Source of the DNA: Bdellovibrionales bacterium
GTDB taxonomy: Bacteria; Bdellovibrionota; UBA1018
NCBI GenBank assembly: GCA_016786465.1
Contig: JAEUWC010000019.1
Coordinates: forward strand, 89,905-153,904
Reading direction: 5' to 3'
Length of the DNA: 64,000 nucleotides
In this document: one piece after another, positions 11,572 to 51,638 of the stretch
How the letters are laid out: every line of letters starts with the position of its first letter
Position numbering within the stretch: position 1 is the first letter of the stretch
The notes under the pieces: generated by a model
Databases searched by the model: none
The model's input: the letters and a program-made list of their open reading frames with translations, nothing else
What the model was told of the DNA's origin: nothing
Position numbers and translations under genes: made by a program

Positions 11572-12279
11572 TTATTTTCCTGAGTGAAATTGAAGTTCCC
11601 AACCCAATTCAGGGGAATAAAAGACAGACGCTTTTCCGAAGGCGGAAAGGCCTTTCATCCAATCTTCTTGTCCCGAAACTTGGGTTACTGATTTTGAAAC
11701 CGCAGTTGAAATCCGAAGCGTGGGTGAAGGTCCTATAAAGCGAATCTGAAGTTCCGAGGCTTTTGCTTGAGCAGCTTCGTCCCAAACCCAAAACAGTCCT
11801 TCGACCATTCGGCCCAACAGTTCGGCAGAATAAAACCGAGCTGGAATCATCGCATGGGCGTCTTCTTGGAACGCTTGAACTGTGATTCCGGCTTCTTTCG
11901 AAAATGGCGCTAGAAATGATACAAGATCTTCTAAAAGTTCGGAGACGGGTACGGGGTCTGACCCTTCGCCCGGGTCCTTCAATAGATTTCTTTGGCCCTT
12001 GAGCATGGCAGCTGCACGCTGCGTGGCCATCAGAATCCGTTCAAGGGACTTGTCCGCCTTGGCCGACGCTTCCTTTCCTAGGGCATCTTGCAGAATACTG
12101 GCAGACCCTTGAATCAGGGTTAAATCATTGTTCAGCTGGTGAACCAGTACGGCTGAATAGCGATCAAGGACTTTCGAACTGCCAAAGTAACTGGGCATAG
12201 CCCGATCATACTGGAACCCCGGCGGTTTGAAATGGATAGCCACAGGATTCTCTTGCGATCTCGATGGATTACCTGACAT
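11572..12279 (-). CDS. Degenerate histidine-kinase-like protein
   Basis: 235 residues from ATG at 12279; TTG at 12327 is possible but gives a non-conserved-looking tail. Residues 36-70 resemble a HisKA dimerisation helix, with VHQLNNDLTLIQG carrying a candidate phospho-accepting His47. A HATPase-like region follows but no clear N-box asparagine or GxGxG glycine box is visible, so it may not bind ATP. No TM segment or receiver gene is adjacent. It is divergent from the lipid operon, 69 bases away, and upstream of the M3 peptidase with which it probably forms an operon. It could be a pseudokinase or a histidine phosphotransfer protein. Confidence 0.55.
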   Translation of the reverse strand: MSGNPSRSQENPVAIHFKPPGFQYDRAMPSYFGSSKVLDRYSAVLVHQLNNDLTLIQGSASILQDALGKEASAKADKSLERILMATQRAAAMLKGQRNLLKDPGEGSDPVPVSELLEDLVSFLAPFSKEAGITVQAFQEDAHAMIPARFYSAELLGRMVEGLFWVWDEAAQAKASELQIRFIGPSPTLRISTAVSKSVTQVSGQEDWMKGLSAFGKASVFYSPELGWELQFHSGK

Positions 12280-12348
12280 ATAACCTATGTTAAAAGCGCA
12301 AAACTCTTTCTGGACTCGGCGCATCAAAAACAGGATAACTTCGGCGGG

Positions 12349-13410
12349 ATGAAATCGGGGTTCTACAAAGGCTTGAAAGCCGAAGTATCGGAATATTTAG
12401 AAGTTCATGGGATTCGCCCCAAAGCGGATTGGATCCTATGGACGAAGTTCCTTGTGTCTTTGGCCTGCCTGCTTGGGTCCTACTTGGCTTTGATGACTTT
12501 GGACTTAAACGCAGCCCAGGCCTGGGTCGTCGGCCTGGTCCTTTCACTTTCTATCTGCTTTTTCTTCGTCAACAGCATGCACGACATGGTTCATGGCGCT
12601 TTGACCGAAAATCGCTTCCTTCGTGATGTCTTCCCCTACATTTTGGACTGGATTGGACCCAGCAGCTTCATCTGGAGAAACAAACACAACCGTAGCCACC
12701 ACTTTCACACGAACCACCCAGGGATCGACAACGACCTAAATGTTTCGATCTTGCTTAGGTTTTCACCCCATCATCCACGAATGGCATTTCACCGATTCCA
12801 AGCGTTTTACATCACCTTGGCCTATTGCCTTCAGACCCTTTTTTGGTTTTACGTCACCGACTTTAAAAACATCCTTCGCGGAAAAATCACAAAACAAAAA
12901 CTTCTAGGACAGACTTCGGCGGAAAACTGGCTTTTCGTTATCAATAAAGGAATTCACATCACTTTAGCTTTGGTAATTCCTAGCCAAGTGCATGGATTCC
13001 AATCGGCGGCGTTGGGTTACCTGGTGGTTTATGGCCTAGCTAGCCTGCTTTTGGCGCTGATTTTTCAGGTAGCGCACGTTTTCGAGGGCGCAAAATTTCA
13101 CACCATTGAACGCTTCGAAGACCAAGATCAATGGGCGAAAAGCCAAATTGAAGGAACCTGCGTCTTCGATCCCGCGTCTAAGTTCGCACTTTGGGTGTAC
13201 GGGGGTCTAAATCTGCAAGTCGTCCACCACTTATTTCCTGAAATCGCTCACACCCATTACTACAAGATTTTTCCGATTATCCGAAAGCATTGCCAGGAAA
13301 ACGGGATCGAATTGCATTGCTTCGAAAGTTTTAGTGCCGCCTTGAAGTCCCATTATCGACAACTGCACCGACTGGGAACGGGGCAAGCCAACGGAGACCT
13401 TTATGCATAA
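12349..13410 (+). CDS. Front-end-type membrane fatty acid desaturase
   Basis: 353 residues with several TM segments. Three histidine boxes bind the di-iron centre: HDMVH (78-82), HNRSHH (113-118) and QVVHH (290-294). Glutamine in the third box is characteristic of front-end or linoleoyl-CoA-type desaturases that put a double bond between an existing one and the carboxyl end. It acts on acyl chains in the inner membrane. First gene of the nine-gene operon; the last gene is a different desaturase. Its stop overlaps the start of the HMG-CoA reductase gene by eight bases. Confidence 0.85.
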   Translation: MKSGFYKGLKAEVSEYLEVHGIRPKADWILWTKFLVSLACLLGSYLALMTLDLNAAQAWVVGLVLSLSICFFFVNSMHDMVHGALTENRFLRDVFPYILDWIGPSSFIWRNKHNRSHHFHTNHPGIDNDLNVSILLRFSPHHPRMAFHRFQAFYITLAYCLQTLFWFYVTDFKNILRGKITKQKLLGQTSAENWLFVINKGIHITLALVIPSQVHGFQSAALGYLVVYGLASLLLALIFQVAHVFEGAKFHTIERFEDQDQWAKSQIEGTCVFDPASKFALWVYGGLNLQVVHHLFPEIAHTHYYKIFPIIRKHCQENGIELHCFESFSAALKSHYRQLHRLGTGQANGDLYA

Positions 13411-15688
13411 GGAATGGACTGACTTTAAGAATCTAAAGGCTCCGGGCCGCGGACAAAGCAACGAAGAAGCGCGACTTGCAAGGGTTCAGTTTCTAGAAAA
13501 GCTAGGCAAAGCCGTGCCGGTAACAGCAAAATCCGCACTTGGCGCGAAGGATGTCAGAAGCAACATCGAATCCTTTGTGGGTGCGACACAGATCCCCGTG
13601 GGCTTGGTGGGTCCGCTGCTTTACCAAAAAGAAGATGGATCACAGGAAGCAGTGTTTAGTTTGGCAGCGACCAGTGAAGGAGCACTGATTGCCAGCATGA
13701 ATCGCGGGGCTTCGGTGATCAGTTCTTGCGGTGGATTCCGCGCCCATGTCCAAGACCAGAGGATGCTACGTGCGCCGCTATTTTGCTTTGAAGATTTGAG
13801 CCAGGCTCGAGTTTTCGCGCAGTGGATTCAGAAACAGAAAGAATTTCTTTCGCAGTACATTCGTCGTTATTCCCGTCACGCCGAACTTCTTGAAATTCGA
13901 ACCAATATCTTTGGTCGAAATGTCGAAACTAAGTTTTATTACCGAACGGGTGATGCCGCCGGACAAAACCAAACTACCATTTGCACGTGGCACAGTTGCC
14001 TTTGGATTGAAAAAGAATTCAATGAAAAGCACGCCTTTCCGATCAAAAGCTTTCTTTTGGAAGGTAACGGAGCATCCGATAAAAAAATCAGCTACGGGAC
14101 TTCGATTAACGGCCGTGGAATTCATGTCATCGCCGAAGCAATCGTGGACCGCGATGTTTTGAAGGCCAAACTGAAGGTCACGCCAGAAGAAATCATTCAC
14201 TTCTTTAACATCACCCAGCAAGTTGCGACTTCAGACGGTATGGTGGGCTACAACATCAACGTCGCCAATTCGATTGCAGCCATTTTTGCTGCCACCGGGC
14301 AAGACTTGGCCTGTGTCCACGAGTCTGCGGTTGGATTTTTTCAGATCGAAGCCCACCCCCGCGGATTGTATTTCAGCCTCAAGCTTCCGAAACTAGTCAT
14401 CGGAACTGTGGGCGGCGGAACCGGTCTACCCACGCAGCGGGAAGCTTTAGAAGTCATGGGGTGCGTTGGAAGCGGTAAGGTTTACCGAATGGCGGAAATG
14501 ATCGCCGGTTTTACACTAGGACTTGAAATATCGACCATGGCAGCAATCGCTTCTGGGCAGTTTGCATTGGCGCATGAACGTCTGGGAAGAAACCGGCCTT
14601 TGGATTCAATCAGCCTTCAAGAACTGCAAGACAGTTACTTGGCCGCCCGTCTACCCGAACTTCAACCCCGATTCGTCGATGACTTTGAAGACAAGAACGG
14701 GATTATCTTGCAGCTGGCTGATCGCCAAAACTCGAAACACATGGGACTAAGTCTTTGGCGAATCAAGGTCCAGAATCAGAATCGTCTGGCGATCTTGAAA
14801 AGTAAGCCGACTCATCCTGAAATTCTAAACGCGATGTATCGACTGACCGGGCTAATTGACCCGGCTTTGGCCAAAAGCTTTTGTCTGTATCAAGGCACCA
14901 GTGAATTTGTAGATAGCCACGTTCGGGAAACGGAAATTTATCAGGCCCTATCCAGCGCAAGATTTACAGCGATTCCAGAACTGTTTGGATCGGTGAACGA
15001 CGCTGAACGCGAAGGTCACATGATTCTGATGGAATACTTAGACGAAAGTCATTTCCGCCTGATGAATTCCGAAGCAACGCCTGAAGCCTGGACACAAACC
15101 GATGCCGAAAGATGCATTCGGTCCATTGTTGAAGCCCAAAAACTTTTGCAACCTTCCATGAGCAGCCCCTGGGTTCGACAGTTTCGCTTCGAAAGTTACG
15201 GGGACTTCTTTTCAAAAGCGATTGAAACAATGAAACAGGAAACGGGAAATGCAGTTTGGGTTTCGCTTTTTCAAGCTGCCCATCGCTATTTGGAAAAGTT
15301 TGAAGCGACCGTCCTGAAAGACGCGCCGCTCAGTGTGGTTCACAACGACTTCAATCCACGAAACGTTGCGGTATCAAAAGCGGATCAGGTCAAGATCTAT
15401 GACTGGGAACTTTCCGCCATCGACCTTCCCCATCGGGATTTTATCGAATTCGCATGCTTCACCCAGCATCCAGGCATCAACTTTAAGGCCTTGCAGCAAA
15501 CCTTCGAATCAGCCTTAGGAAATGCAAGCGCATTTCATCCGGATTCCTACAGGTATGCGTTTGCCAAGTTCTTGGTGACTCGGGTCAGCCTTTACGTTTT
15601 AGGGAATAGCTTAAGCCGCTACACTTTCTTGAAACCTTTACTTCGCGGAATCCTGCAGATTAATTCCGAGGAAAAGTATTTTGTCTAA
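13403..15688 (+). CDS. HMG-CoA reductase fused to an aminoglycoside-phosphotransferase-like kinase domain
   Basis: 761 residues. Residues 50-405 form a class I-like HMG-CoA reductase with catalytic residues retained: Glu92 in TSEGALIASMNRG, Lys in DKK (227-228), Asp301 in ATGQD, and His391 in LAHERLGRN, plus the DAAGQN (184-189) and GTVGGGT (334-340) nucleotide and dimer motifs. It should reduce HMG-CoA or a related thioester to mevalonate or a related alcohol. Residues 450-761 form a complete APH/choline-kinase-like domain: candidate ATP lysine in AILKSK, catalytic VHNDFNPRN (His647, Asp649, Asn654), and metal-binding Asp667 in IYDWEL. The fusion is not a standard mevalonate-pathway enzyme; mevalonate kinases are GHMP proteins. 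Reading overlaps both neighbours. The coupling suggests the reduced alcohol is the kinase substrate, which is inference. Confidence 0.85.
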   Translation: MHKEWTDFKNLKAPGRGQSNEEARLARVQFLEKLGKAVPVTAKSALGAKDVRSNIESFVGATQIPVGLVGPLLYQKEDGSQEAVFSLAATSEGALIASMNRGASVISSCGGFRAHVQDQRMLRAPLFCFEDLSQARVFAQWIQKQKEFLSQYIRRYSRHAELLEIRTNIFGRNVETKFYYRTGDAAGQNQTTICTWHSCLWIEKEFNEKHAFPIKSFLLEGNGASDKKISYGTSINGRGIHVIAEAIVDRDVLKAKLKVTPEEIIHFFNITQQVATSDGMVGYNINVANSIAAIFAATGQDLACVHESAVGFFQIEAHPRGLYFSLKLPKLVIGTVGGGTGLPTQREALEVMGCVGSGKVYRMAEMIAGFTLGLEISTMAAIASGQFALAHERLGRNRPLDSISLQELQDSYLAARLPELQPRFVDDFEDKNGIILQLADRQNSKHMGLSLWRIKVQNQNRLAILKSKPTHPEILNAMYRLTGLIDPALAKSFCLYQGTSEFVDSHVRETEIYQALSSARFTAIPELFGSVNDAEREGHMILMEYLDESHFRLMNSEATPEAWTQTDAERCIRSIVEAQKLLQPSMSSPWVRQFRFESYGDFFSKAIETMKQETGNAVWVSLFQAAHRYLEKFEATVLKDAPLSVVHNDFNPRNVAVSKADQVKIYDWELSAIDLPHRDFIEFACFTQHPGINFKALQQTFESALGNASAFHPDSYRYAFAKFLVTRVSLYVLGNSLSRYTFLKPLLRGILQINSEEKYFV

Positions 15689-16196
15689 ACACTTTATACT
15701 GACTTACCTTCCGCTGTTGCTGACCAATGTCCTTCACATGTGGATGGTGAAGTGGGACTGGCTTTCGCCCCTAAAGATTCCCGTCAACGAAAGGCTCTTT
15801 GGCAAGAACAAGACCTGGCGCGGTATCTTTCTAGTCGCCATCTTGAACCTGCTTTTCTTTTCAGCCGTTGCTTTGGCTTTTGGCTATTGGAACGAACTAA
15901 GCCCCGAAGCGCCTGTTCTTGGGCTGTCATTGGGATTGGCCTACAGCCTTTCAGAACTTCCGAATTCTTTTTTAAAGCGTCGCCTAGGTATTGCCCCCGG
16001 ACAGAAGTCAGGCCCTGGACTTTCCTGGAGCGTTTTTTCTGATCGCGCAGATTCCGCATTGGGCGTTTGCTGGGTTTATTGCTGGATGATGAATCTTGAC
16101 GTGACCACTGGCGCGATTCTTTTCTTCCCTGCGCTTTTGGTTCACCTTTTCTTTTCCGCAGTTTTGGTTGCTTTGAAGGTCAAGGAACAGATCTGA
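15681..16196 (+). CDS. CarS-like CDP-archaeol synthase family membrane protein
   Basis: 171 residues, about five TM helices. Motifs GKNKTWRG (41-48), LPNSFLKRRLGIAPG (93-107) and DRADS (121-125) match the CarS/DUF46 family, which transfers CMP from CTP to an unsaturated phospholipid precursor, typically archaeal geranylgeranylglyceryl phosphate. Bacterial CDP-diacylglycerol is normally made by the longer CdsA. Starts with TTG inside the end of the previous gene (eight-base overlap) behind GAGG. Acyl-modifying genes surround it, so its lipid acceptor may be an unusual one. Family match by eye; substrate open. Confidence 0.75.
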   Translation: MSKHFILTYLPLLLTNVLHMWMVKWDWLSPLKIPVNERLFGKNKTWRGIFLVAILNLLFFSAVALAFGYWNELSPEAPVLGLSLGLAYSLSELPNSFLKRRLGIAPGQKSGPGLSWSVFSDRADSALGVCWVYCWMMNLDVTTGAILFFPALLVHLFFSAVLVALKVKEQI

Positions 16197-18577
16197 TGCG
16201 CTTCCAAAATCTTTCCGAAAAACTAAATGAATCACAAGTCGGCGCCAAGGCGTTTCACCTGTCACGAATGATTCAACTAGGCGTTTCGGTTCCAGAAGGC
16301 TTTGTCGTCGCGACCCAGGGAAAGCCGCCTAACGTCAATTCGATGGACGCTTTTAAGACCGAACTACTAAAACGCGCTTCTGAAATTCGGTCTGACCGTC
16401 TGATGATTCGAAGTTCGGCTGTCGGAGAAGATTCGGGCGACGCATCCTTTGCCGGACAATTGGATTCGTTTTCGGTCAACAACACCCCGGACGAGATCCT
16501 TCAGGGTTTTTTTCGTTGCCTGGAATCATTGAACGGAAAACGTGCTGAAGTTTACGGGCAAAAATCCGGCCGTAAGCTAGACCGAATGGGCGTGATTGTT
16601 CAAAGAATGATTTCACCTGACTATGCGGGTGTCTTGTTTACCCGATCACCGCTGAATCCAAAAGAAGCCCTTTTAGAATTCGTCGACGGACATGCTGAAA
16701 AGCTGGTTTCAGGGCAAGTCACGCCCGTTTCGGTTTCATTTACCTGGGGTCAGGTTCCCAAAGGACTGCCTTTTGACCCGACATCCCTATTTGAACAAGC
16801 CCAGAAGATTCAGGAAAATTCCACAAGCCCACAAGATATCGAGTGGACGGTGGTCAATCAAAAGGCATCCCTGGTTCAGGCGCGCCCGATTACTTCGATT
16901 CTGGAAGATCGCAATTGGTCCAATACCAATGTAAACGAAAACTATCCTGATCGTTTAACCCCATTTTTGGCATCACTGGCACGTGAATCCTACTACCACT
17001 ACTTCAAAAACCTAGCGATTCAGCTGGGCGGATATGATTCCATCCTCGAGACCGAACTTCGATCAATCATAGGAACCTGGGGCTGGAAAATGTACTACAA
17101 CATGACCAGCATTCACCAAATCTTAGCCCAGTCGCCATTTGCTGGGCTTTTTCGAAAAAGTTTTGACGACTTTGTAGGCTACACAAAGGATTCACCCTCG
17201 ATCGGTGTGCGCCTTCAAGGCATTCGGAAAAAGCTAGGGTTTGCCTTAAATCTTCTGTTTCAGTTCGTCAGGCTTCCGGCGCGTGTCGCGTGGATCGAAA
17301 AGGAAGTTCAAGCCCATTCCCAAGCTGTCGATCAAGCCCGAGATTTGAAGTCACTTTCCAAAGCCTATCACCAGTTCTTGAACCTACGTTTTAATGAATG
17401 GCATCGGGCTTCCTTTGCTGATCTTTTTGCGATGATCACCCACGGAATCTTAGGAAAGATCTGTTCGATGGCCGACCCCCAGAAGGCCTCGGGCCTTCAG
17501 AATCAACTGATCCAAAGCATTCCAGGCCTGGTCAGCAATCAACCCATTTTCGAAATCCACCGGCTGGCGTCTTTAATCCAAGAAGATCAGGGGGCTGGAT
17601 CGACATTCGTGGGGGATGCAGAAAATGCCATTTCGTGGATGCACGAAAACCCAGAATCCGAAATCACCCAGGCTTTCGAACGATACCTTTTGAACTGGGG
17701 TTTTCGGTGCTCGGGTGAACTGACCTTGACCACGCCCAATTACATTGATGATCCACGCCTTTTGGTTCAAGTGCTTCAGTCTTACTTAAAGTCCAGTCCG
17801 CGGGATCCTGAAAGTCTGTTTTTAAAAAAATCCCGTGAACAAAAAGATATTCTGCAAAAAACGCGTGAAAAGCTTGGGTTCCCCTGGGCGACTATCCTGA
17901 GCCTAACCGTTCAGGCAACAGCCTACAGTATTTCCTGCCGCGAGCGCGTCCGACTGAAGCAAGCGCAAATGTACCATTCGGCAAAAAGAATTTTGAAAGC
18001 ATTGGGACAGAAACTAGCCACCCAAGGCAAGCTTGAAAAAGTGGATGACATTTTCTTTCTAGAATACCCAGAAGTTTCTAGAATTTTTTCCGGCGAAGAA
18101 TTGGATTCAAGCCTGGTCCAAGCCCTAGTCCAAAGCCGGCGAAAGTCCTTTGATCAAGCAAAACCGGCACCTGACGAGTTTTCTACACGCTTAGGCGAGT
18201 TCAAAAATGATCCCATTCCTTCATTGACGAAACCGTCCACAACCTTGACGGCAGACGGGAATTTACATGGGTTATCAGCTTGCGGAGGTATCGTTGAAGG
18301 CACGATTCGAGTCCTAGAATCGATTCACGAAATACCCAGGATTCAGAAAGGCGACATCTTGGTCACCAAGCAAACGGATCCAGGCTGGATCTGCGCGTTT
18401 CCGGTGATTTCAGGCCTAATTGTCGAACGCGGCGGAATGCTTTCGCACGGGGCAATCGTGGCTCGCGAATTCGGAATTCCTGCAGTGGTCGCTGTGGATC
18501 AAGCGACTTCGATCCTTAAAGATGGAAGCAAGGTCCGTCTGGATGCGTACCAAGGAAGGATTGAATGCTTGAACTGA
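16196..18577 (+). CDS. PEP-synthase/rifampicin-phosphotransferase-like dikinase
   Basis: 793 residues. The N-terminal 240 residues are a PPDK_N/PEP-synthase ATP-grasp domain (VGAKAFHLSRM, RSSAVGEDSGDASFAG, QARPI). The middle domain (about 245-690) is unlike PEP synthase's PEP-binding barrel. The C-terminal 100 residues are the swivelling phosphohistidine domain with GGMLSHGAIVAREFGIP, catalytic His751. This order, without the PEP/pyruvate TIM barrel, resembles rifampicin phosphotransferase-type dikinases, which transfer the ATP beta-phosphate through His to an organic acceptor. TGA of the CarS-like gene and this ATG overlap (TGATG). In a lipid operon the acceptor may be a lipid precursor; this is inference. 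Confidence 0.7.
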   Translation: MRFQNLSEKLNESQVGAKAFHLSRMIQLGVSVPEGFVVATQGKPPNVNSMDAFKTELLKRASEIRSDRLMIRSSAVGEDSGDASFAGQLDSFSVNNTPDEILQGFFRCLESLNGKRAEVYGQKSGRKLDRMGVIVQRMISPDYAGVLFTRSPLNPKEALLEFVDGHAEKLVSGQVTPVSVSFTWGQVPKGLPFDPTSLFEQAQKIQENSTSPQDIEWTVVNQKASLVQARPITSILEDRNWSNTNVNENYPDRLTPFLASLARESYYHYFKNLAIQLGGYDSILETELRSIIGTWGWKMYYNMTSIHQILAQSPFAGLFRKSFDDFVGYTKDSPSIGVRLQGIRKKLGFALNLLFQFVRLPARVAWIEKEVQAHSQAVDQARDLKSLSKAYHQFLNLRFNEWHRASFADLFAMITHGILGKICSMADPQKASGLQNQLIQSIPGLVSNQPIFEIHRLASLIQEDQGAGSTFVGDAENAISWMHENPESEITQAFERYLLNWGFRCSGELTLTTPNYIDDPRLLVQVLQSYLKSSPRDPESLFLKKSREQKDILQKTREKLGFPWATILSLTVQATAYSISCRERVRLKQAQMYHSAKRILKALGQKLATQGKLEKVDDIFFLEYPEVSRIFSGEELDSSLVQALVQSRRKSFDQAKPAPDEFSTRLGEFKNDPIPSLTKPSTTLTADGNLHGLSACGGIVEGTIRVLESIHEIPRIQKGDILVTKQTDPGWICAFPVISGLIVERGGMLSHGAIVAREFGIPAVVAVDQATSILKDGSKVRLDAYQGRIECLN

Positions 18578-19152
18578 CCAAAACCTTAGCATTCTATTAT
18601 CGTGAACGCTTTAGGCCATTTCCTTGGTTGATTCTGCCCTTTGTCTTGTCGGTCCTATTTGTAGGATCTTTGGGCCCCGCGTTTTGGCAGGCGGCGCTTT
18701 ATTTTGGACTAAGCCTTTTGTTTTTTCGTCTTTTTGATGATCTAGGGACCCATCTTTATGATGGCGCTCGGGGGAAAAAACGAAGCTACCTGAATCGACT
18801 TCAACAGCTTGAAGTCGCAGTTTTCTTGCCCTTAGGGCTTCTTTTAAGCGTCACCTTTTTCTGGCTGGGTCTGCCTGGAATCATTTGGATGACATTATTC
18901 ATTTTGCTGTCAGGCGCCCTTTATCTGGTTGGATCGCCAAAGCGACCCGTACTTTTTGTTTCTATTTTGAAGTACCCGTTTCTGGGCGCCTTGGTTATGG
19001 GCGGCTTTGATGCCTGGATTTTGGTCGGGTTTTCCTTGTTTCTGCTTCATGAACTGATTGAAGAAAAGTTTCTGCCCTTTCCTAAAGCCACCGCTTGGTT
19101 CGCCTTTATTGTGGTTTTAGGTTCACGTGTATTTTGGAGCCAATTCCGATGA
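18565..19152 (+). CDS. Short UbiA-like membrane protein
   Basis: 195 residues with about five or six TM helices. FFRLFDDLGTHLYD (53-66) resembles the Asp-rich prenyl-diphosphate site of UbiA-family prenyltransferases (Asp58, Asp59, Asp66). UbiA proteins usually have about 280-300 residues and a second Asp motif, which I cannot see clearly, so this is short. It overlaps the dikinase gene by 13 bases and the methyltransferase by four. Known UbiA enzymes attach prenyl chains to aromatics, haem or glyceryl phosphate. Assignment is tentative. Confidence 0.5.
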   Translation: MLELTKTLAFYYRERFRPFPWLILPFVLSVLFVGSLGPAFWQAALYFGLSLLFFRLFDDLGTHLYDGARGKKRSYLNRLQQLEVAVFLPLGLLLSVTFFWLGLPGIIWMTLFILLSGALYLVGSPKRPVLFVSILKYPFLGALVMGGFDAWILVGFSLFLLHELIEEKFLPFPKATAWFAFIVVLGSRVFWSQFR

Positions 19153-20129
19153 CCCCTTCAATGACGACCCAAAAATTCCCAAACAAAACCAACCCTGCGC
19201 ACTATCACTTTGAAGACGTCGCCTGCTATCAGTGCGGATCCAAGAAAAGTCAGTACTTTCTGACAGGTGAAGAAGACCTTACGGGTAAAGAAGGCTACTT
19301 TAATTATGTTCGCTGCGAAAATTGCAATCTAGTCTACCAAAACCCCCGTATCGCCGCTGACCAGATCAAGTCGTTCTATGACAGCGAATACATTGCTCAC
19401 AGAAAGAAGACGAACTGGGGGATTTTGACTCCGCTTTATGAACGCGCGATGAGCAAGCATGACCGCGATAAAGACGCGCTGGTCAGCCGTTATGTCAAAA
19501 TTACGTCCGAAACCAAAGTTCTGGACGTTGGATGTGCAGTGGGGACATTTCTTCTTCACCTAAAGAAGAAGTATGGCGCAAAGATCAGCGGTGTCGACTT
19601 TAAGGAAGACTTAAGTTTTCCTGGTTTTGAACAGATCGACTTTCATTGCGGGCTTTTCTACGAACAGAAACTTGAACCCGAAAGCTTCGACCTTGTGACC
19701 ATGTGGCATTTTCTTGAACACTGCTATTCGCCGCCCCAGTCCTTAAAAAAGGCGGCACAAGTCGTCAAAAAAGGCGGGAAAGTCATCATCGAAGTCCCGC
19801 GCCTGGATTCATTGACCTACAAAGTGTTTCAAGAAAAATGGCCTGGTGTTCAGGCACCGCAGCATACTGTGCTTTTTGATAAGGAATCCTTGATCTCGAT
19901 GGCTCAAAAGAACGGCCTAAAAGTAATCGACTACCTTCCTTATGGCGCTTTTCCGGCCTATTTTTACATTTTTGCTGGGACCTATTTCAAAACATTGGGC
20001 AAAGGTCTGAACCTAAACCGGGCCATAGCGCCCTACTTCTTGGGCCAGCTTCTTCTTGCACCGCTACTTGCGTTTGAAAAGAAGCTGAATCTTTCGATGC
20101 AAACCATCATTTGCGAAAGGACTGAATGA
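19149..20129 (+). CDS. SAM-dependent methyltransferase with N-terminal zinc ribbon
   Basis: 326 residues from ATG at 19149, the ATGA overlap with the previous stop; a longer start at 19095 is less likely. CxxC pairs at 26/29 and 56/59 form a zinc knuckle. VLDVGCAVG at about 124-132 is the SAM-binding motif I of a class I methyltransferase. The order zinc ribbon-methyltransferase resembles Methyltransf_23/Tyw3-unrelated sugar or lipid methyltransferases of biosynthetic clusters. Two hydrophobic patches near the C-terminus may touch the membrane. Substrate unknown; the operon suggests a lipid intermediate. Confidence 0.75.
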   Translation: MTPSMTTQKFPNKTNPAHYHFEDVACYQCGSKKSQYFLTGEEDLTGKEGYFNYVRCENCNLVYQNPRIAADQIKSFYDSEYIAHRKKTNWGILTPLYERAMSKHDRDKDALVSRYVKITSETKVLDVGCAVGTFLLHLKKKYGAKISGVDFKEDLSFPGFEQIDFHCGLFYEQKLEPESFDLVTMWHFLEHCYSPPQSLKKAAQVVKKGGKVIIEVPRLDSLTYKVFQEKWPGVQAPQHTVLFDKESLISMAQKNGLKVIDYLPYGAFPAYFYIFAGTYFKTLGKGLNLNRAIAPYFLGQLLLAPLLAFEKKLNLSMQTIICERTE

Positions 20130-20866
20130 AGATTTTGGTCCTGATCTACCGAAGCTTGATTGCTTACCTAGGAATCACGTTGAATGGCCTGATCGGGTCG
20201 ATTCTGTATTTGATTTCTTTTGGGCGACTTCGCAGGTGGAACGCCGAAGTCCTGACGCCATTTTTTGGAAAGTGGATCTTAAAGCTGATTGGAATTGAAG
20301 CGGTTCTTCCCGATTCGTCTCAGATTCCCGCAGGCCCTGTGATGTACATCTTCAATCACAATTCGTTTTTGGATATTTTTCTTTTACCGATGCTGAAGTT
20401 GCCCAATACCGTCCCGCTTCTTTCGACTCGCACCCGGAAGATCATTCCCCTTTACCTGGCGAATCTAGGAATGGGCGCCAAGTTCATTCCATTTAAGGAC
20501 CGTCCCGAAGCCCGGCTGGGTTTCTTAAAGGCTTTGTCCAAATGGCTAGAACGAAAAGAAGCAAGCCTGGTTTGCGCGCCCGAAGGCGTCCATCGCTTTC
20601 GTCACGGCATTGGAAAATTCAATCGTGGAATCTTTCATGCCGCCATGGAAAGTCGAACGACCATTGCTCCACTTTTCTTCAAGATCCCAAAGGAAAGCAA
20701 TCCGCTTGAAACCCATTCCTTTAGAAATGGGCGTGTGGAAGTCAGTGTTTTACCCCCGATTTCAACGGCAAACTGGACCGTTGAAACCTTGGATGAAGAA
20801 ATTCAAAGAATCCGAAACATTTACGTTCAGAAGTTCAATCAGGAATTTCAGGCGGGGATTCAATGA
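20126..20866 (+). CDS. PlsC-type 1-acylglycerol-3-phosphate acyltransferase-like
   Basis: 246 residues. N-terminal TM at about 8-30. The catalytic box NHNSFLDIF gives H78 and D83 (HX4D), followed by the APEGVHR (151-157) element equivalent to EGTR. This family acylates lysophosphatidic acid or similar lyso lipids at the cytoplasmic face of the inner membrane. ATGA overlaps the methyltransferase stop, and its own TGA overlaps the next ATG. Acyl specificity and acceptor unknown. Confidence 0.85.
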   Translation: MKILVLIYRSLIAYLGITLNGLIGSILYLISFGRLRRWNAEVLTPFFGKWILKLIGIEAVLPDSSQIPAGPVMYIFNHNSFLDIFLLPMLKLPNTVPLLSTRTRKIIPLYLANLGMGAKFIPFKDRPEARLGFLKALSKWLERKEASLVCAPEGVHRFRHGIGKFNRGIFHAAMESRTTIAPLFFKIPKESNPLETHSFRNGRVEVSVLPPISTANWTVETLDEEIQRIRNIYVQKFNQEFQAGIQ

Positions 20867-21309
20867 TTCAAGCCAGTTTTGAAGTTTTCAGGTCTTTTTT
20901 CAGGACGCCGGATCCAACACGAACGCTTGAACCCGCAACGTTTACAGTCATGCCTTGGCATCTGGATTTGAATGGTCACGTCAATAATGCGACGTATTTG
21001 AACTATTGCAATCAGGCGCGCCTGATTCACCTAGCGGGGCTGGGGCTGGTCAAGCCCATGGTGCAAAATCGCATTGCACCCGTGATTTCAAAGACTGAAA
21101 TTCAGTATCTTCGATCACTAAAACTTTTTGACCGCTTCACGATCGAAACCCAATTTGAAAATCACGCCTTTGAATCCATTGAAATTTCGCATCGATTTTC
21201 AAAAAAGGGAAAAGCAGTCGCCATCGTTCGATCCAAGATCAAACTTTTAAGCCCAGGGGGTCAGGATGAGTCTAGAAAACTCTACCTTCGATACTTCGGC
21301 GGCAATTAG
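20863..21309 (+). CDS. Hotdog-fold acyl-CoA/acyl-ACP thioesterase
   Basis: 148 residues. The DLNGHVNNATYLNY stretch (35-48) matches the 4HBT hotdog thioesterase active site (Asp, HxxN). It should hydrolyse acyl thioesters in the cytosol, releasing free fatty acids or editing the acyl pool. Starts at the ATGA overlap with the acyltransferase; its last 44 bases overlap the start of the second desaturase. Chain length cannot be read from the sequence. Confidence 0.8.
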   Translation: MIQASFEVFRSFFRTPDPTRTLEPATFTVMPWHLDLNGHVNNATYLNYCNQARLIHLAGLGLVKPMVQNRIAPVISKTEIQYLRSLKLFDRFTIETQFENHAFESIEISHRFSKKGKAVAIVRSKIKLLSPGGQDESRKLYLRYFGGN

Positions 21310-22228
21310 TTCACCGACGCGTAGTTTGATTGTCAAAAGCGACTGGGCGGCTGCAAAACGCCTGATTCTGCCTATTGCTTTTGGTGTATTTTGTTTTTTG
21401 AATCTTTCATCCGGCTGGATTTTGTACAGCCTGGGTCAAATTTTAGGCGCTGTTTTCTTTGCCCAGTGCTTTATCTTGCTTCATGAATTCGGGCACGATT
21501 CATTCTTTAAGACTCGGTATTTGAATACAGTCTTTGGTCAAATCGCGTCCTTTCTAGTCTTCTTGCCCTTTCACAACTGGAAAAAAATTCATGCCCTTCA
21601 CCACAAGTGGACCGGATGGCGTGACCTTGACCCCACCACGGAAAAGACGTTCGACGGACGTTTTGGAACGATTCAGCGACAGGTGATCCATTTTTGCTGG
21701 AAATACCATGTACCCATTTTCACCCTAGGCTACCGATTGGGGATTTATTGGAAACTTGAAAAACTGAAGCGTCACCTTTCGCCGCGCGATTATTTCGCGT
21801 GCCAGTTGAACATGGCTGCGATGGTGATCGTTTATATCGGCCTGATCTTTTTTGCGGGCGATACCCTGCTTCGAATCTTGCCGGCTTTGTACTTCAGTTG
21901 GGCGATTTGCGACGTGGTGTCATTAAGCCAGCATTCCCATATCGAAATGCCCGTTTCTAACGGCATAGCCGTTCAGCCACTTAAGTACCGAGAACAGGCG
22001 CAGTATTCGCGAAGTCTGATTCTTCCTTCCGCAATCGGCGAATACTTCTATTTCAATATGAATTTCCACGAGGCACACCATCATTACCCGGGACTGCCTT
22101 GTTACCATCTTCCTAAGGTCCAGGTGCCTTCGAAAAATGCCTACCCATTCTGGCCGTGGCTAAAAAAAGTGAAATCGATGCCCGGTGTGGTCTTCATTTT
22201 CACCACATCAAAAGATCGGGACTTTTAG
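21266..22228 (+). CDS. Membrane fatty acid desaturase (second of the operon)
   Basis: 320 residues with four TM segments. Histidine boxes HEFGH (73-77), HALHH (109-113) and HEAHHH (about 268-273) mark a di-iron membrane desaturase/hydroxylase. The third box lacks the glutamine of the first desaturase, so it belongs to another subfamily, possibly a methyl-end desaturase or sphingolipid-type hydroxylase. Starts inside the thioesterase gene behind GGGGGTCAGG. Last gene of the operon; it converges on the next gene with three bases between. Confidence 0.8.
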   Translation: MSLENSTFDTSAAISSPTRSLIVKSDWAAAKRLILPIAFGVFCFLNLSSGWILYSLGQILGAVFFAQCFILLHEFGHDSFFKTRYLNTVFGQIASFLVFLPFHNWKKIHALHHKWTGWRDLDPTTEKTFDGRFGTIQRQVIHFCWKYHVPIFTLGYRLGIYWKLEKLKRHLSPRDYFACQLNMAAMVIVYIGLIFFAGDTLLRILPALYFSWAICDVVSLSQHSHIEMPVSNGIAVQPLKYREQAQYSRSLILPSAIGEYFYFNMNFHEAHHHYPGLPCYHLPKVQVPSKNAYPFWPWLKKVKSMPGVVFIFTTSKDRDF

Positions 22229-22231
22229 AAA

Positions 22232-22603
22232 TTAAAGGGTGCAGGTCAATTTCAAATCGACGGCCTTGCCGTCTTTGTCTTCGACGCCAGAAGACGACTT
22301 AAATGAACCTTCGTACAATGTCGCGACTGAAGTGCTGGTTGTCTTGGTCAGTTCCAACACATCTTGCGAACCGTCAGAGCGGGACCAGGTGACTTTCAGT
22401 CCATCTTGAGTGCTTTCAATGGCGTCGGCTTTATCGAAATCTTTCGAAACGACCGAACCCTTTAGCGAAACTTCCGTCATCATTTTTTCTTCGTGAACGG
22501 TCACGGATAACGAACCGCAGTCCAACTGGTAGATGGTCTGCGAAGCTTGTCCTGGGCTTTGAAACGCTGCGGAAATAATCATCGGCAAAAAGTAGGCTTT
22601 CAT
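22232..22603 (-). CDS. Small exported protein
   Basis: 123 residues, unknown. A signal peptide (1-20, cut after GQA) and a beta-rich mature part with two cysteines (LDCGS, LTCTL) that could form a disulphide in the periplasm. ATG at 22603 is preferred as it begins the signal peptide. It converges with the desaturase gene. Confidence 0.6.
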   Translation of the reverse strand: MKAYFLPMIISAAFQSPGQASQTIYQLDCGSLSVTVHEEKMMTEVSLKGSVVSKDFDKADAIESTQDGLKVTWSRSDGSQDVLELTKTTSTSVATLYEGSFKSSSGVEDKDGKAVDLKLTCTL

Positions 22604-22951
22604 TTTCGGTCCTCGTGACTTGGATCAAGCAGGGGCCGTGCCAGGCCATCCGTCTGCCAAATCGTATCCATTCGAACTTGCGCTGAAAGCACATAGGATT
22701 CAGTTTGGGGCTTTTGCAGCTGTCTAAACATTTTTCAGTCCGTCGGGGAATCCAGGCCAGGAACCAAGGTGGTGTTATTGCTAGTTTAAATTATTGATAT
22801 TTAAATACTTTTTTGACGGCAAACGTGTATACTAGAACTTCACTGATCGAGTTCAGACTTTAGCGAGCTCGAGCCTTCCAAGAGAAAATCTTTAAAAGCC
22901 TACCACTTTAGATCGAATTCTTTTCAGGTTAACGAAAAAGGAGAAACGATT
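22604..22951. other. Gene-free spacer with possible promoter
   Basis: 348 bases with no convincing gene. It contains an AT-rich stretch (about 22785-22812) and a good -10 box TATACT at 22828-22833, but no consensus -35 box at 16-18 bases. The next gene begins at 22952 with AAGGAG eleven bases before it, so the 5' leader is about 110 bases. Confidence 0.4.
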
Positions 22952-23164
22952 ATGTTGGTAACGAATCAAGTAGTATCGGCTTTGAAAAAAAGGCCAAGCG
23001 GCAGCAGTGTCATCAAGAAAAAGGCGTGTGCCGCCTGCGGTTGCGCATTTTCCCCAAGATTCCTGTTTTCAATCACCTGCGATTTCTGCAGGTCACCCAT
23101 GAGCAGCTTTCTATCGGTTCCAAATGAAACTACGCCGTCTTTAATGATGGCACTGGTGGCTTAA
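22952..23164 (+). CDS. Small zinc-ribbon-like protein
   Basis: 70 residues, unknown. CAACGCAF (32-39) and CDFC (53-56) form two knuckles of a probable zinc ribbon, flanked by a basic N-terminus with KKRPS. Preceded by AAGGAG at eleven bases. Its TAA overlaps the next ATG by one base (TAATG). DNA- or RNA-binding role possible but not shown. Confidence 0.65.
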   Translation: MLVTNQVVSALKKRPSGSSVIKKKACAACGCAFSPRFLFSITCDFCRSPMSSFLSVPNETTPSLMMALVA

Positions 23165-23364
23165 TGAGTACGCTTACAGTGGACAAGAAAATCGAAAAAT
23201 CGATGCTCGAGCAACTAGCGGAACGAGTACAGGACCTTTTCTTAAAGGTCCAATCCGCCCGATCCATGGATCGCCCAAGAGCCAGCGTTCTTTATGGCGA
23301 AGCATGTTTGGCCTACAGAGCACACAAGATCTTTGTGATCGAACAAGATGCCTTACTGAAATAA
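23164..23364 (+). CDS. Small helical protein
   Basis: 66 residues, no recognised family. It looks fully alpha-helical, with a hydrophobic heptad-like pattern (MLEQLAERVQDLFLKV). It is translationally coupled to the zinc-ribbon gene through TAATG and is followed after ten bases by the SlyD-like gene. Function unknown. Confidence 0.55.
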   Translation: MSTLTVDKKIEKSMLEQLAERVQDLFLKVQSARSMDRPRASVLYGEACLAYRAHKIFVIEQDALLK

Positions 23365-23374
23365 GGAGCCGCGA

Positions 23375-23854
23375 ATGAAACCTCAAGTGATCTCATTCAA
23401 CTGCGTAATGCGAAATAAGTTGGGCCAGGTCCTGAGTTCGTCTTTCAATCACGACGTGATCAATCAAGATGACGGCAACTACAATCGCCTGCCGGGACTG
23501 GTCCAGGGGCTACAGGCGGTTCGGGTGGGCGAAAAGCGAAATATCGTGGTTCCGGCAGACAGCGCTTACGGTCGCTACGACCCGCGACTGATCATCGAAG
23601 TCAGACGTTCCGAACTGGAGTACGGTGATCGCTTGAAACTGGGAAGCCAGGTTCTTCGATTTCATGAACCCACTTCTGAACAAAAACTTTTCAGGGTCGT
23701 TCAAATGAACGAGGATTCAGTAGTTCTGGATGGCAACCATTCGCTCGCGGGTCACGATCTGGTTTTTGAAGTCGAGATCGTCTCAGCAAGAGATGCGGAC
23801 GACAGCGATCTGACGGATGCGTCTACGCTGATCGGTAATCAGCTTTTGCACTAA
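23375..23854 (+). CDS. SlyD-like FKBP-type peptidyl-prolyl isomerase
   Basis: 159 residues. The pattern GLVQGLQAVRVGEKRNIVV, SAYGRYDPRLI and LDGNHSLAGHDLVFEVEIV matches SlyD/FKBP, with an FKBP core interrupted by an IF (insert-in-flap) segment. SlyD isomerises proline bonds and acts as a chaperone; the usual His-rich metal-binding tail is absent. Start ATG with AAGGAG ten bases upstream. Third gene of a small operon. Confidence 0.8.
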   Translation: MKPQVISFNCVMRNKLGQVLSSSFNHDVINQDDGNYNRLPGLVQGLQAVRVGEKRNIVVPADSAYGRYDPRLIIEVRRSELEYGDRLKLGSQVLRFHEPTSEQKLFRVVQMNEDSVVLDGNHSLAGHDLVFEVEIVSARDADDSDLTDASTLIGNQLLH

Positions 23855-23965
23855 GATACATCTGTGCTAGACTGATTCAGTAAGTAGTTCATTGTTTGCT
23901 TCTTCCGAGTCTGCGGGCATTGTGCCCATATCCTCTTGAGCGGCTCCCAGCCTTTAGGAGGTTAA

Positions 23966-24277
23966 ATGGGTAAAAAATTATACGTAGGCAATCTTCCTTT
24001 TTCAGCAACCGATCAGATCTTGAACGACACTTTCGCACAATGCGGAACGGTCGAATCTTCGAAAATCATCGTCGATCGCGACTCGGGTCGTAGCAAGGGT
24101 TTTGGCTTTGTCGAGATGTCGACCGAAGCAGAAGCTCTCGACGCAATCAGTAAATTCAACGGCGCCGACTATGACGGACGCGCCATGACCGTGAACGAAG
24201 CCAAGCCGATGGTTCCTCGTGAAAATCGTGGCGGCGGCTTTGGCGGCGGCAATCGCGATCGCGGCAACCGCTGGTAA
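23966..24277 (+). CDS. RRM-domain RNA-binding protein with Gly-rich tail
   Basis: 103 residues. RNP2 motif LYVGNL (5-10) and RNP1 KGFGFVEM (45-52) identify a single RRM domain; residues 85-103 are Gly/Arg-rich (GGGFGGGNRDRG). Such proteins bind RNA, often in cold response. AGGAGG (23956-23961) ends four bases before the ATG. A small 5-bp hairpin (GGGCA-TTG-TGCCC, 23915-23927) lies in the leader. A strong terminator follows. Confidence 0.9.
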   Translation: MGKKLYVGNLPFSATDQILNDTFAQCGTVESSKIIVDRDSGRSKGFGFVEMSTEAEALDAISKFNGADYDGRAMTVNEAKPMVPRENRGGGFGGGNRDRGNRW

Positions 24278-47958: not shown

Positions 47959-49221
47959 GTGAAGCGGAAACGACTTGGCTTGCGACTTGTTGTGGCAATT
48001 TTGGCTTTGACCCCATTTTCCAAGGCTTGGGCCAAGAAAGTCGGAAACTGTGCCGAGCACGACCGCTTCCGTGCGGTGTATTGCGCGGACCTCGCGGTTT
48101 CTCATTTGGGATCCAGCAACCCCAAGCTTAAAGCGGCTGCCCAGAAGTGTTCCAAAGACCAAAGCTGTTGGTGCCGCCTGAATGTCGTTGGCCCAGGTGG
48201 GTCAGCGGTTCTTCAAAACCTGGATCCGCCAAACGGAGAAATTGCTTCCCGTCCCGGGCCGGGATTTGTGAAAAACCCTAAGGGACACCTGGCACCCAAG
48301 GTTGCCGAATTTCAATGGATTCGCGACCAGTACATCGGCGACCCGACCTTTCTTCAAGTTGCGAAGTATGACATCGATCGGAATCGGGATTGCACCATCC
48401 CCCGACACCGAAAGGGGGAATGCCATTTGGATGTGGTGAATCTGGAAAAGCGTGGAAAGAAATTTCAAATAGCTTCGGTCTGTGATCAGTCGGGAAATCA
48501 CTTCAACGAAGATTTTTACATTGCCGGTGTTGATGAAACAATCAAGATCAAGACGGCCGGAAAACCATCCAGTCACCCCAAACGAATCAGCCGCAATCCT
48601 GGATCTTCCAAATCGGTCGCGGGCGGTTACACCGGTGTTTACGGAAGCATTACAGTCGGCGTTGTTTCCGGAGCCGGCGCGATCATGTTGGTCGGCCTGT
48701 CAAACGGTGAAGGTGGATTAATGCTGGCTGGTGGCGTTGGAGCTGTCGCAGGCGCCGCGCTCAGCGCCTGCGCAGGTGCTGTTGCCGGAATTATTTCGGG
48801 TCCCGGCTGCCATGGACTTTCAGATCTTGAAGGCTGGGGAATCACCGCCTGTGGTGGCGCGTCTGTCAAAGCAATTGCCGGCGCGGGTGCTGGGGTCTGC
48901 GTGAGTGCGGGGTTAAGAAACGCCCCCAAATTCAAAGGGAAAGACGCACGTATGCTGGGGGAAGCCCTTGCCCTTTCATTGACACAGCTGATGAGCGGCC
49001 GAGCTCCCGCCAACTTGAATCAAGTTTCTTCGGCTTCAAAAGAAGTTTTGAGCAATATTAATCCCTGCTTTGCGTACGGACCCTTTGGGGAAGTCTGCGC
49101 AGGTGTCGGCGGCGGGGTCGGTGCCGTAGGTATCGGAAAGACCACGACCCTAAAGCGCTTCAAAAAAGGAAGTATTCAAGAATTTGGATTCAGAATGATG
49201 CTTGGACTTCCACTGAGATAA
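47959..49221 (+). CDS. Exported protein with hydrophobic Gly/Ala core
   Basis: 420 residues from GTG at 47959. Signal peptide 1-25 (cut after AWA). Several cysteines in the first 150 residues (NCAEH, YCADL, CWCRL). Residues 215-320 are a Gly/Ala-rich hydrophobic stretch with many GAGA-type runs, possibly membrane-inserting, as seen in colicin-like or pore proteins. No family recognised. It follows the papain-like gene by 86 bases on the same strand. Function unknown. Confidence 0.6.
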   Translation: MKRKRLGLRLVVAILALTPFSKAWAKKVGNCAEHDRFRAVYCADLAVSHLGSSNPKLKAAAQKCSKDQSCWCRLNVVGPGGSAVLQNLDPPNGEIASRPGPGFVKNPKGHLAPKVAEFQWIRDQYIGDPTFLQVAKYDIDRNRDCTIPRHRKGECHLDVVNLEKRGKKFQIASVCDQSGNHFNEDFYIAGVDETIKIKTAGKPSSHPKRISRNPGSSKSVAGGYTGVYGSITVGVVSGAGAIMLVGLSNGEGGLMLAGGVGAVAGAALSACAGAVAGIISGPGCHGLSDLEGWGITACGGASVKAIAGAGAGVCVSAGLRNAPKFKGKDARMLGEALALSLTQLMSGRAPANLNQVSSASKEVLSNINPCFAYGPFGEVCAGVGGGVGAVGIGKTTTLKRFKKGSIQEFGFRMMLGLPLR

Positions 49222-49310
49222 TGGTGCCGAGGACGGGAATCGAACCCGTACGCCTCTTACGAAGCGCAGGATTTTAAGTCCTGTGCGTCTACCAATTCCG
49301 CCACCCCGGC
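49222..49310 (-). tRNA. tRNA-Leu(TAA)
   Basis: 89 bases with encoded CCA. Acceptor GCCGGGG pairs with CCTCGGC (one G-U). Anticodon stem CAGGA/TCCTG with loop CTTAAAA gives anticodon TAA. Long variable arm as expected for leucine tRNAs. Confidence 0.95.
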
Positions 49311-49372
49311 AGTGTAAGCGATGGCCTTAAATCAACACGATCTTGGGCGCGACGCAACGAAATATCCAAGCC

Positions 49373-50074
49373 CTATTGGCACATCGTATTGACATGCAGC
49401 GAGCACTCTTGCAGGGCGCCCCCTGCCCCTTGATAAAACGCGTTTTCAAAATACGTCTTTCGATGCGTCGACTGATGACCGCTGGCAAAGGTCAGGGTGA
49501 TCTGCATCCAAACCCCATAGGATCCCTGCGAACAGCTACAGAAGCGGTTGGCCGGCGCTGGCGAATCTTTTCCGTTCGACCCCTGTGGCCCAGTGTGCCC
49601 AGGCGCACCTTGCAGTCCCATCGGCCCCATAGGACCCATAGGTCCCGTGTCGCCGCGTGGCCCGGTCAATCCGCGCGGGCCATCTTCGCCCACAATCCCC
49701 TGCGGTCCCTGTGGTCCTGTAGGTCCCATTGGGCCCTGAAAACCCTTGGGTCCGACCAGGTCTCCGGGAAAACCCTGCTCTCCGCGTGGGCCCATCGGAC
49801 CAACCGGCCCTGGGTCGCCCTGCACAGAAAATCCGGGGTAACCCGTTTCGCCCACTGGACCGATCAAACCGATATCACCTTCTTCACCCCGTGCTCCGGC
49901 CGGGCTTGGGGTGTCGTCTAGATTCTTTTTCAAAATTCCCAATCGGGCACCCGTCGTTGAAATCCGGTCATTCAAGTCTTTGCGCTTTTTGGATCCAAAA
50001 AGAGCATGCGCCGGTTGCACCGTACCCGTTGCGAAAGACGAAACCACGACCATCCACAGAATCTTTTGAAACAT
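49373..50074 (-). CDS. Secreted collagen-like protein, third of three
   Basis: 233 residues. Signal peptide 1-24 (HA cut), short charged helix (28-55) possibly for trimerisation, then about 36 Gly-X-Y triplets from residue 60 to 168, with small breaks at GFSVQG and GDLVG. The C-terminal domain (169-233) starts with FCSCSQGSYG and ends ECSLHVNTMCQ. The other two copies share this layout: FC-x-C at the start and a cysteine pair at the end. ATG at 50074 has GGAG ten bases upstream. Confidence 0.85.
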   Translation of the reverse strand: MFQKILWMVVVSSFATGTVQPAHALFGSKKRKDLNDRISTTGARLGILKKNLDDTPSPAGARGEEGDIGLIGPVGETGYPGFSVQGDPGPVGPMGPRGEQGFPGDLVGPKGFQGPMGPTGPQGPQGIVGEDGPRGLTGPRGDTGPMGPMGPMGLQGAPGHTGPQGSNGKDSPAPANRFCSCSQGSYGVWMQITLTFASGHQSTHRKTYFENAFYQGAGGALQECSLHVNTMCQ

Positions 50075-50083
50075 GGAATTCTC

Positions 50084-50785
50084 CTACCTGCAGATCGTGG
50101 AAATCGCCGCGCTACACGCCGCCCACGCCTGTTGAATGCTGTTATTGTATTCCGACGCCGGAAAAGTGGTCATCGTGTACGGTGTGTCGCGCGAAGCAGT
50201 GACCAGGTGTTTTTCTAGTTCAACTGTGTAAGATGTTCCTTCGCACGCGCAGAAAGTGGTCGGAAGAACCGGCGCGTCGATCCCGGGATCACCCCTAGGC
50301 CCCGTCAGTCCCACCGCACCGGAATCGCCTTGCGGTCCGTAAGGACCTTGAAGACCGGTTGGTCCTTTGCTTCCGGTTTCTCCAGTCGGCCCTGGGTCGC
50401 CCTGATCGCCTTCGGGTCCGACTGGGCCCATGGGACCCCGGATTCCTTGTGGACCGCGTGGTCCGGCAGGGGCTCCTTGCGGGCCTCGAGGACCTTTGGG
50501 TCCAACGTCTCCCATGTCGCCGGTCGGACCTTTAGGCCCGTTGGGACCGCGTGCGCCGCGGTAACCTTGCGGACCCGTCACGCCCTGTGGGCCTTTATCG
50601 CCCTTGGGTCCTGTGATCTGGTGCGCCTTGCTTGAAACCCTTTTTTCAAGCGCCGTAACTTGCGATTCAAGTTCCGTCACTTGCTTTTGCAGTTCTTCAA
50701 GCTTGGGAACTTCAGCTGCACCCATGGCGGACGCTGCTAGAAGAATAGAAACACATGGGATCCACAAAAAACTGAAACTTTTCAT
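50084..50785 (-). CDS. Secreted collagen-like protein, second of three
   Basis: 233 residues from ATG at 50785. Signal peptide 1-22, coiled coil at 28-52 ([20 protein letters not shown]) with leucine heptads, then Gly-X-Y from about 59 to 168 with a break at PQGAPAG. C-terminal domain with FCACEGTSY and terminal [11 protein letters not shown]. It sits 10 bases upstream of the third gene, and its ATG overlaps the stop of the first (ATGA). GGAG lies eleven bases before the start. Confidence 0.85.
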
Positions 50786-51498: not shown

Positions 51499-51638
51499 CG
51501 TGATACCCCTTTGCCAGAAATGCCCGGATATCAGCAAAACCAGTGCCAGCGTCTTCTCGATTGGAAAAGATCTTAAGCGTATGACACAGCGCGAACTGCA
51601 CGGTCAGTGTCATCTTGCCTGGGCCGATGTGGAACCAG

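Follow-up and report, generated by a model that had tools for sequence, protein, structure and literature searches.

What lipid, if any, is made by an operon that places an apparent HMG-CoA reductase (HMGR) among enzymes of CDP-activated lipid synthesis? The question is raised by a locus of a Bdellovibrionales bacterium (GCA_016786465.1), which lies in a stretch of 64,000 nt (contig JAEUWC010000019.1, positions 89,905–153,904 of the forward strand) referred to here as the window; all coordinates are relative to the window. We infer the enzymatic steps, substrates and final lipid from sequence, and on balance we favour a dedicated fatty-alcohol-based phospholipid pathway, possibly of the alkyl-ether type. 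A literature search returned no description of this gene combination, which is no proof of novelty.

A single operon of nine overlapping genes

Nine open reading frames, all on the plus strand, occupy 12349–22228, and every adjacent pair overlaps by 1–44 bases (A/B at 13403–13410, B/C at 15681–15688, C/D at 16196, D/E at 18565–18577, E/F at 19149–19152, F/G at 20126–20129, G/H at 20863–20866 and H/I at 21266–21309). The neighbouring genes, at 11572–12327 and 22232–22603, lie on the opposite strand and bound the set, so that a single transcription unit is framed on both sides. A reading of the DNA made from the letters alone (the sequence-only reading) had described nine mutually overlapping genes on one strand, forming one operon, and both points are borne out by the open reading frames and the flanking strands. 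Promoter and terminator scans at the operon gave signals no higher than the shuffle level. The G+C content over the operon (12000–24000) is 0.47–0.49, below the 0.50–0.52 of most flanking stretches, and such a dip fits acquisition by transfer. Elsewhere, at 48001–52000 of the window, G+C rises to 0.556.

Pfam recognized FA_desaturase, HMG-CoA_red with APH, PPDK_N with PEP-utilizers, Methyltransf_23, Acyltransferase, 4HBT and a further FA_desaturase domain along the operon. Gene A (des1; 12349–13410, 353 aa) encodes a membrane fatty-acid desaturase-type protein (PF00487, E = 2.9e-26), and gene I (des2; 21266–22228) a second one (PF00487, E = 3.7e-31). Gene F (19149–20129, with its ATG at 19149) encodes a SAM methyltransferase with N-terminal CxxC pairs (PF13489, E = 1.2e-21), gene G (20126–20866) a PlsC-family acyltransferase (PF01553, E = 9e-12) and gene H (20863–21309) a hot-dog acyl thioesterase of the 4HBT/YbgC type (PF13279, E = 7.1e-19). 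The des2 gene was present in all window-type copies examined, and a single-sequence profile of des1 had no match beyond the window copy in the loci scanned. Gene F is 69% identical to its copy in a Bacteriovoracaceae operon (L012), as against 29–44% identity for five other genes shared by the same two Bdellovibrionota operons; this far higher conservation suggests a demanding or shared substrate.

The reductase domain of gene B resembles FcrA

Gene B (13403–15688, 761 aa) is predicted to encode an FcrA-like acyl-thioester reductase domain of the HMGR fold (residues 26–396; 13478–14590; PF00368, E = 5.5e-93) fused to an APH-type kinase domain (residues 508–684; 14924–15454; PF01636, E = 1.3e-14) with an HNDFNPRN...YDWE motif. 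The best PDB match of the reductase domain was the archaeal HMGR 6hr7, and NCBIfam TIGR00533 scored gene B at 255.1 bits, under its curated cut-off of 441.8. The catalytic residues E56, K227, D301 and H391, equivalent to E559, K691, D767 and H866 of HMGR, are invariant in seven Bdellovibrionota homologues of gene B, and E559, K691, D767, N755 and H866 were kept in 84–85 of 86 homologues (alignment of covered sequences). A loss of the catalytic lysine in the DAMGMN region was considered and rejected, because Lys691 sits in the DKK motif, which is intact.

The differences lie in S684 and K735, the HMGR residues that bind the HMG carboxylate, and in L862. Gene B has E220 at the S684 position, no lysine at the K735 position and F387 at the L862 position. 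All 85 covered homologues (alignment n = 86) have Glu or Asp at S684, a frequency inflated by scan patterns that selected for DA[SA]GQN or [ED]GN..SDKK; the K735 and L862 columns lay outside this selection, as did E559, D767, N755 and H866, and lysine occurred at K735 in just 3 homologues of the 86-sequence alignment. As a control, the HMGRs in eight Calditrichota mevalonate operons retain SGN, IKKN and Leu862; the non-mevalonate homologues compared carry Glu or Asp at S684 and Phe or Trp at L862 and do not conserve K735. Phylogenetically, 10 class I mevalonate or reference HMGRs formed one clade (SH-aLRT 99) with gene B outside it, and the kinase-fused proteins fell in another clade (SH-aLRT 99), a topology that sets gene B apart from the class I mevalonate HMGRs and is silent on whether the FcrA-like clades form one group.

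FcrA, which reduces long-chain fatty acyl-CoA and not HMG-CoA, shows S684 changed to Glu, K735 replaced (printed as Lys795, which we equate with K735) and L862 changed to a bulky residue (Grossi et al. 2025, PMC11948995). That characterization concerned an N-terminally extended subgroup and not the kinase-fused clade, in which the L862 position is mostly Phe rather than Trp; its assays used plain acyl-CoAs, an ether-lipid role was suggested for some FcrA, and the term 'kinase' is absent from its main text (PMC11948995). From the FcrA signature and the lost HMG-carboxylate ligands, we infer that the gene B reductase is FcrA-like and predict that it reduces long-chain acyl groups. The loss of these ligands and the context of two Calditrichota operons described below also argue, independently of the FcrA paper, for a non-HMG, alcohol-forming enzyme. 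An amino-alcohol substrate, with the Glu at S684 binding the amine, was dropped as a candidate, since the FcrA data account for the same change.

Predicted activation and joining enzymes

The APH motif was found in 61 of 62 long gene B homologues, and kinase-fused FcrA proteins occur in many phyla near CDP-lipid enzymes. The reductase lacks the kinase in the AGPS-type Calditrichota operons (L095 and L142), where the alcohol is used unactivated; this is what a logic of alcohol first and phosphate next predicts, a thin test in two closely related loci.

Gene C (15681–16196, 171 aa; NCBIfam PRK04032, E = 2e-8) encodes a CarS-like, putative CTP:lipid-phosphate cytidylyltransferase. Taken alone its NCBIfam score was weak (34 bits), and it fell below the Pfam threshold; the CarS-like family profile (A3) had as its sole PDB match the CDP-archaeol synthase 5guf (E = 2.8e-6), and the CarS homologue of a Bacteroidota locus (L023) scored 22.6 bits against the PF01864 cut-off of 22. 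At the level of the family profile, the assignment of gene C as a CarS-like homologue is firm. At 18 of 85 loci CarS directly adjoins the HMGR-like gene in the same orientation, and no CarS turned up in 18 same-family genomes without the FcrA-kinase; both patterns support CTP activation by gene C. Against it, CarS or UbiA was not found in some genomes that carry the FcrA-kinase.

Gene D (16196–18577, 793 aa; PF01326 and PF00391) encodes an Rph/PEP-synthase-type dikinase with an ATP-grasp domain, a middle domain and a C-terminal phospho-His domain, whose swivel His751 lies close to the C terminus; the domain calls for gene D include no PEP-binding C-terminal domain. Its best PDB match was 5hv2/5fbs (E = 4e-59), deposited under the name PEP synthase.

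Gene E (18565–19152, 195 aa) had no Pfam support as UbiA when taken alone. The family profile (A4) matched the DGGGPS structure 6m31 (E = 1.7e-11), marking gene E as a short, degenerate UbiA-superfamily protein nearest DGGGPS. Its AlphaFold2 model (pLDDT 86) is all-helical, with a weak fold match to 6m31 (prob 0.72, TM 0.54) and no significant match in the fold search. In motif I the family shares just three invariant residues, R55, D58 and D66, the only ones of this motif that gene E retains. Motif II is mostly lost in the UbiA proteins of window-type operons, which do not carry the usual pair of Asp motifs. As statements of homology, the CarS-like (family profile to 5guf) and rifampicin-phosphotransferase-like (PDB match and domains) labels that the sequence-only reading gave to genes C and D are right; its UbiA-like label names a real homologue by family profile to 6m31, but a short and degenerate one in which the Asp motifs are partly lost.

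The gene set recurs in other bacteria

The HMGR-kinase fusion is patchy: a search of the phylum, covering 241 genomes, gave seven strong matches, the window's own included. Scanning some 85,000 species genomes yielded 80 loci, whose neighbours were then recoded with family profiles. The core of the window operon (FcrA-kinase, CarS-like protein, Rph-type dikinase, DGGGPS-like UbiA, methyltransferase, desaturase and usually PlsC) also occurs in six other genomes from two phyla, with operons of the same order in Bacteriovoracaceae (L020/L012), Pseudobdellovibrio (L038) and Bacteroidota (L022, L023, L025 and L063). A seventh other genome, G032, has the HMGR-kinase alone at one locus (L014), and CarS, dikinase, UbiA, methyltransferase, PlsC and desaturase together at another (L112), away from the first. 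The search for the same gene order, proposed earlier as a check, thus found it in six other genomes and split in a seventh; recurrence of the set with its order preserved is not chance, and the split set is good evidence for joint function.

Related loci carry other combinations. Kordia and other Bacteroidota have the HMGR-kinase, CarS and a CDP-alcohol transferase; two Kordia genomes with FcrA-kinase and CarS had no UbiA-profile match, and the Kordia genome tested for the dikinase (G242) had no match to it. Gammaproteobacteria such as Kosakonia and Marinobacter have UbiA, HMGR-kinase, dikinase, a GNAT-like protein, an AMP-ligase, a CDP-alcohol transferase and CarS. Thermodesulfobacteriota, Myxococcota and Paenibacillus variously combine HMGR-kinase, dikinase, UbiA, PS decarboxylase, a PS-synthase-like transferase and CarS. 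The gene sets of Type IV loci include PS-synthase-like and PS-decarboxylase genes, in support of a phospholipid product.

Six Bacteroidota loci (L085, L086, L087, L089, L090 and L097) encode a kinase-less FcrA-like protein, UbiA, dikinase, DUF3419, a CTP_transf_1 relative, a GNAT-like protein and an AMP-ligase. DUF3419 is, we presume, the family linked to the betaine-lipid enzyme BtaA, and this operon possibly makes a related lipid whose head group is of the homoserine type. A kinase-less FcrA-like gene also lies beside an iron alcohol dehydrogenase and an LPG_synthase_C (PF09924) protein in L092, L094 and L099. Actinomycete loci (L046, L053, L055, L069, L070, L074 and L079) contain consecutive GH3-like, FcrA-kinase and thymidylate-kinase-like genes, an arrangement of GH3, HMGR-kinase and thymidylate-kinase-like genes found in Streptomyces. 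Two Calditrichota loci (L095:1287–6021 and L142:7806–12356) have a kinase-less HMGR-like gene followed directly by PlsC, AGPS and SDR, and the AGPS of this operon type scored 470 bits to 2uuu; these are compact, eukaryote-like ether lipid operons in which an FcrA-type reductase is the likely alcohol maker.

Mevalonate and other lipid routes in the host genome

We compared the DXP and mevalonate routes in the window's genome, a check that the sequence-only reading had also suggested, and found no Dxr and a second, canonical-type HMGR. This gene is class-II-like, lies at a contig end beside a type 2 IPP isomerase (L158:64–2414; contig C13 of genome G000) and, with the isomerase, is evidence for a mevalonate pathway in this genome. 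Given this separate HMGR and the absence of Dxr, mevalonate supply does not require the copy in the operon, and a mevalonate role for gene B was rejected.

For WS/DGAT, TIGR02946 had no match in the window's genome, with a weak control signal; for GGGPS/PcrB, PF01884 had none there, with positive controls. An AGPS query had a sole match in this genome, 191 residues at 31% identity in the query's FAD-binding region, a partial match of the FAD-oxidase kind. With WS/DGAT and GGGPS absent and the AGPS match partial, the alcohol is unlikely to enter wax, archaeal-type isoprenoid lipids or AGPS ethers, and wax esters, GGGPS-type lipids and AGPS ethers were disfavoured as products. CarF/PEDS1 (PF10520) co-occurred in 2 of 50 genomes, with no enrichment; plasmalogens are therefore not indicated, and were rejected as a product.

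A candidate pathway and its alternatives

The product is probably an undescribed fatty-alcohol-derived phospholipid, patchily distributed over many bacterial phyla. Gene B would reduce a long-chain acyl-CoA or acyl-ACP with NADPH to the alcohol, by FcrA chemistry, and its kinase would convert the alcohol to an alkyl phosphate. Gene C would use CTP to activate either this alkyl phosphate or a lipid phosphate with two chains assembled from it, and the CDP-activated lipid would pass to a CDP-alcohol transferase. None is encoded within the window operon, so in this genome the transferase would be supplied from elsewhere; some relatives encode an adjoining one, PS-synthase-like or PgsA-like. Genes D, E and G probably form a module that adds a second chain. 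In our preferred version, D would pyrophosphorylate the alkyl phosphate, E would form an ether bond from the product and G would acylate the remaining hydroxyl. H, A and I would tailor the chains, and F would methylate chain or head group. The Kordia genomes, with FcrA-kinase and CarS and no UbiA-profile match, point to reductase, kinase and CarS as the core and to dikinase and UbiA as an added module, and the reductase's fatty-alcohol-making position in the Calditrichota operons supports its reading as an alcohol maker. Against the pathway, gene E encodes a shortened UbiA protein in which both Asp motifs are incomplete; an alkyl diphosphate that is not allylic would be an unusual donor for UbiA. 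The earlier proposal of an unusual lipid made by reduction, phosphorylation, CTP activation and joining to acyl chains fits both gene content and conservation. More tentatively, at somewhat less than even chances, we suggest a new phospholipid class, glycerol-free or straight-chain ether and present in several phyla, in which alcohols from an HMGR-derived reductase would be phosphorylated and then CTP-activated by an archaeal-type synthase.

Should the product be an alkyl-ether glycerophospholipid only, the route would run in archaeal style from alcohol to phosphate to diphosphate, with a UbiA-made ether bond and CarS leading to straight-chain ether lipids. The best PDB matches of the UbiA and CarS families (DGGGPS and CDP-archaeol synthase), the kinase-less reductase of the AGPS-type operon with its unactivated alcohol, and the thymidylate-kinase-like genes beside FcrA-kinase in other locus types all speak for it, but the degenerate UbiA of the window, the Kordia genomes with no UbiA-profile match and the lack of CarF co-occurrence make this restricted version rather unlikely. 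Less probable again is a glycerol-free phospholipid in which gene B makes and phosphorylates a 1,3-alkanediol from a 3-hydroxyacyl thioester, PlsC or the UbiA protein loads a chain onto the 3-OH, and CarS acts directly on that backbone, with the diol in glycerol's place. HMGR itself works on a 3-hydroxy thioester, the adjacency of CarS and HMGR-like genes and the Kordia set of FcrA-kinase, CarS and CDP-alcohol transferase, with no UbiA-profile match, suit such a lipid, and a substrate that the ordinary CdsA could not accept would call for a dedicated CarS. Yet the substrates tested with FcrA were plain acyl-CoAs (PMC11948995), gene B has no sequence sign of 3-hydroxy specificity, and the role of the dikinase is left unexplained.

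A lipid built on an HMG- or mevalonate-derived unit, as first proposed, is very improbable. Pfam and NCBIfam do label the domain HMG-CoA reductase and its catalytic residues are intact, but this part of the sequence-only reading fails on the loss of the S684, K735 and L862 chemistry with its HMG-carboxylate ligands, on the sub-threshold NCBIfam score (255 against 441.8), on the separate mevalonate-type HMGR gene, and on the FcrA signature and its precedent (PMC11948995). The chances are slighter still for wax-ester or other neutral-lipid synthesis, the role of characterized FcrA, whose alcohols feed wax synthase in haloarchaea and in some bacteria (PMC11948995): the window's genome has no WS/DGAT match, and a kinase fusion and a CarS would hardly make sense there. 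The fatty-alcohol-based phospholipid pathway is the reading we retain.

Comparison with known systems

Bacterial routes, aerobic and many others, to non-isoprenoid ether or otherwise unusual phospholipids are a largely open field, to which the operon and its relatives bring a defined, testable gene set whose first enzyme has a biochemical precedent in FcrA and whose next steps are archaeal-type. Annotations of 'HMG-CoA reductase' outside mevalonate operons may denote fatty acyl reductases, recognizable by a Glu in place of S684, a missing Lys at K735 and a Phe or Trp in place of L862.

Gene B shares with FcrA (PMC11948995) the class I HMGR fold, the catalytic residues, the change of S684 to Glu, the loss of K735 and a bulky residue at L862. 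It differs in its fusion to an APH-type kinase, its place among CDP-lipid genes and the lack of any identified fusion to Lad or ACP. With the late archaeal phospholipid pathway the operon shares a UbiA family nearest DGGGPS and a CarS-like enzyme, whereas GGGPS is missing, the alkyl chain would come from a fatty acyl reductase with its kinase, and the UbiA protein is degenerate; relatives of PS synthase and PS decarboxylase, corresponding to the archaetidylserine synthase and decarboxylase step, occur in related loci. The peroxisome-like, AGPS-type operon of Calditrichota likewise sets an HMGR-like reductase beside PlsC, together with AGPS and SDR, but the window operon has no AGPS and, in its place, a kinase, a dikinase, CarS and a UbiA protein. 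Gene D, finally, has the ATP-grasp, middle and C-terminal swivelling His domains of the Rph and PEP synthase dikinases, from which its genomic context and its divergent substrate-binding middle domain set it apart.
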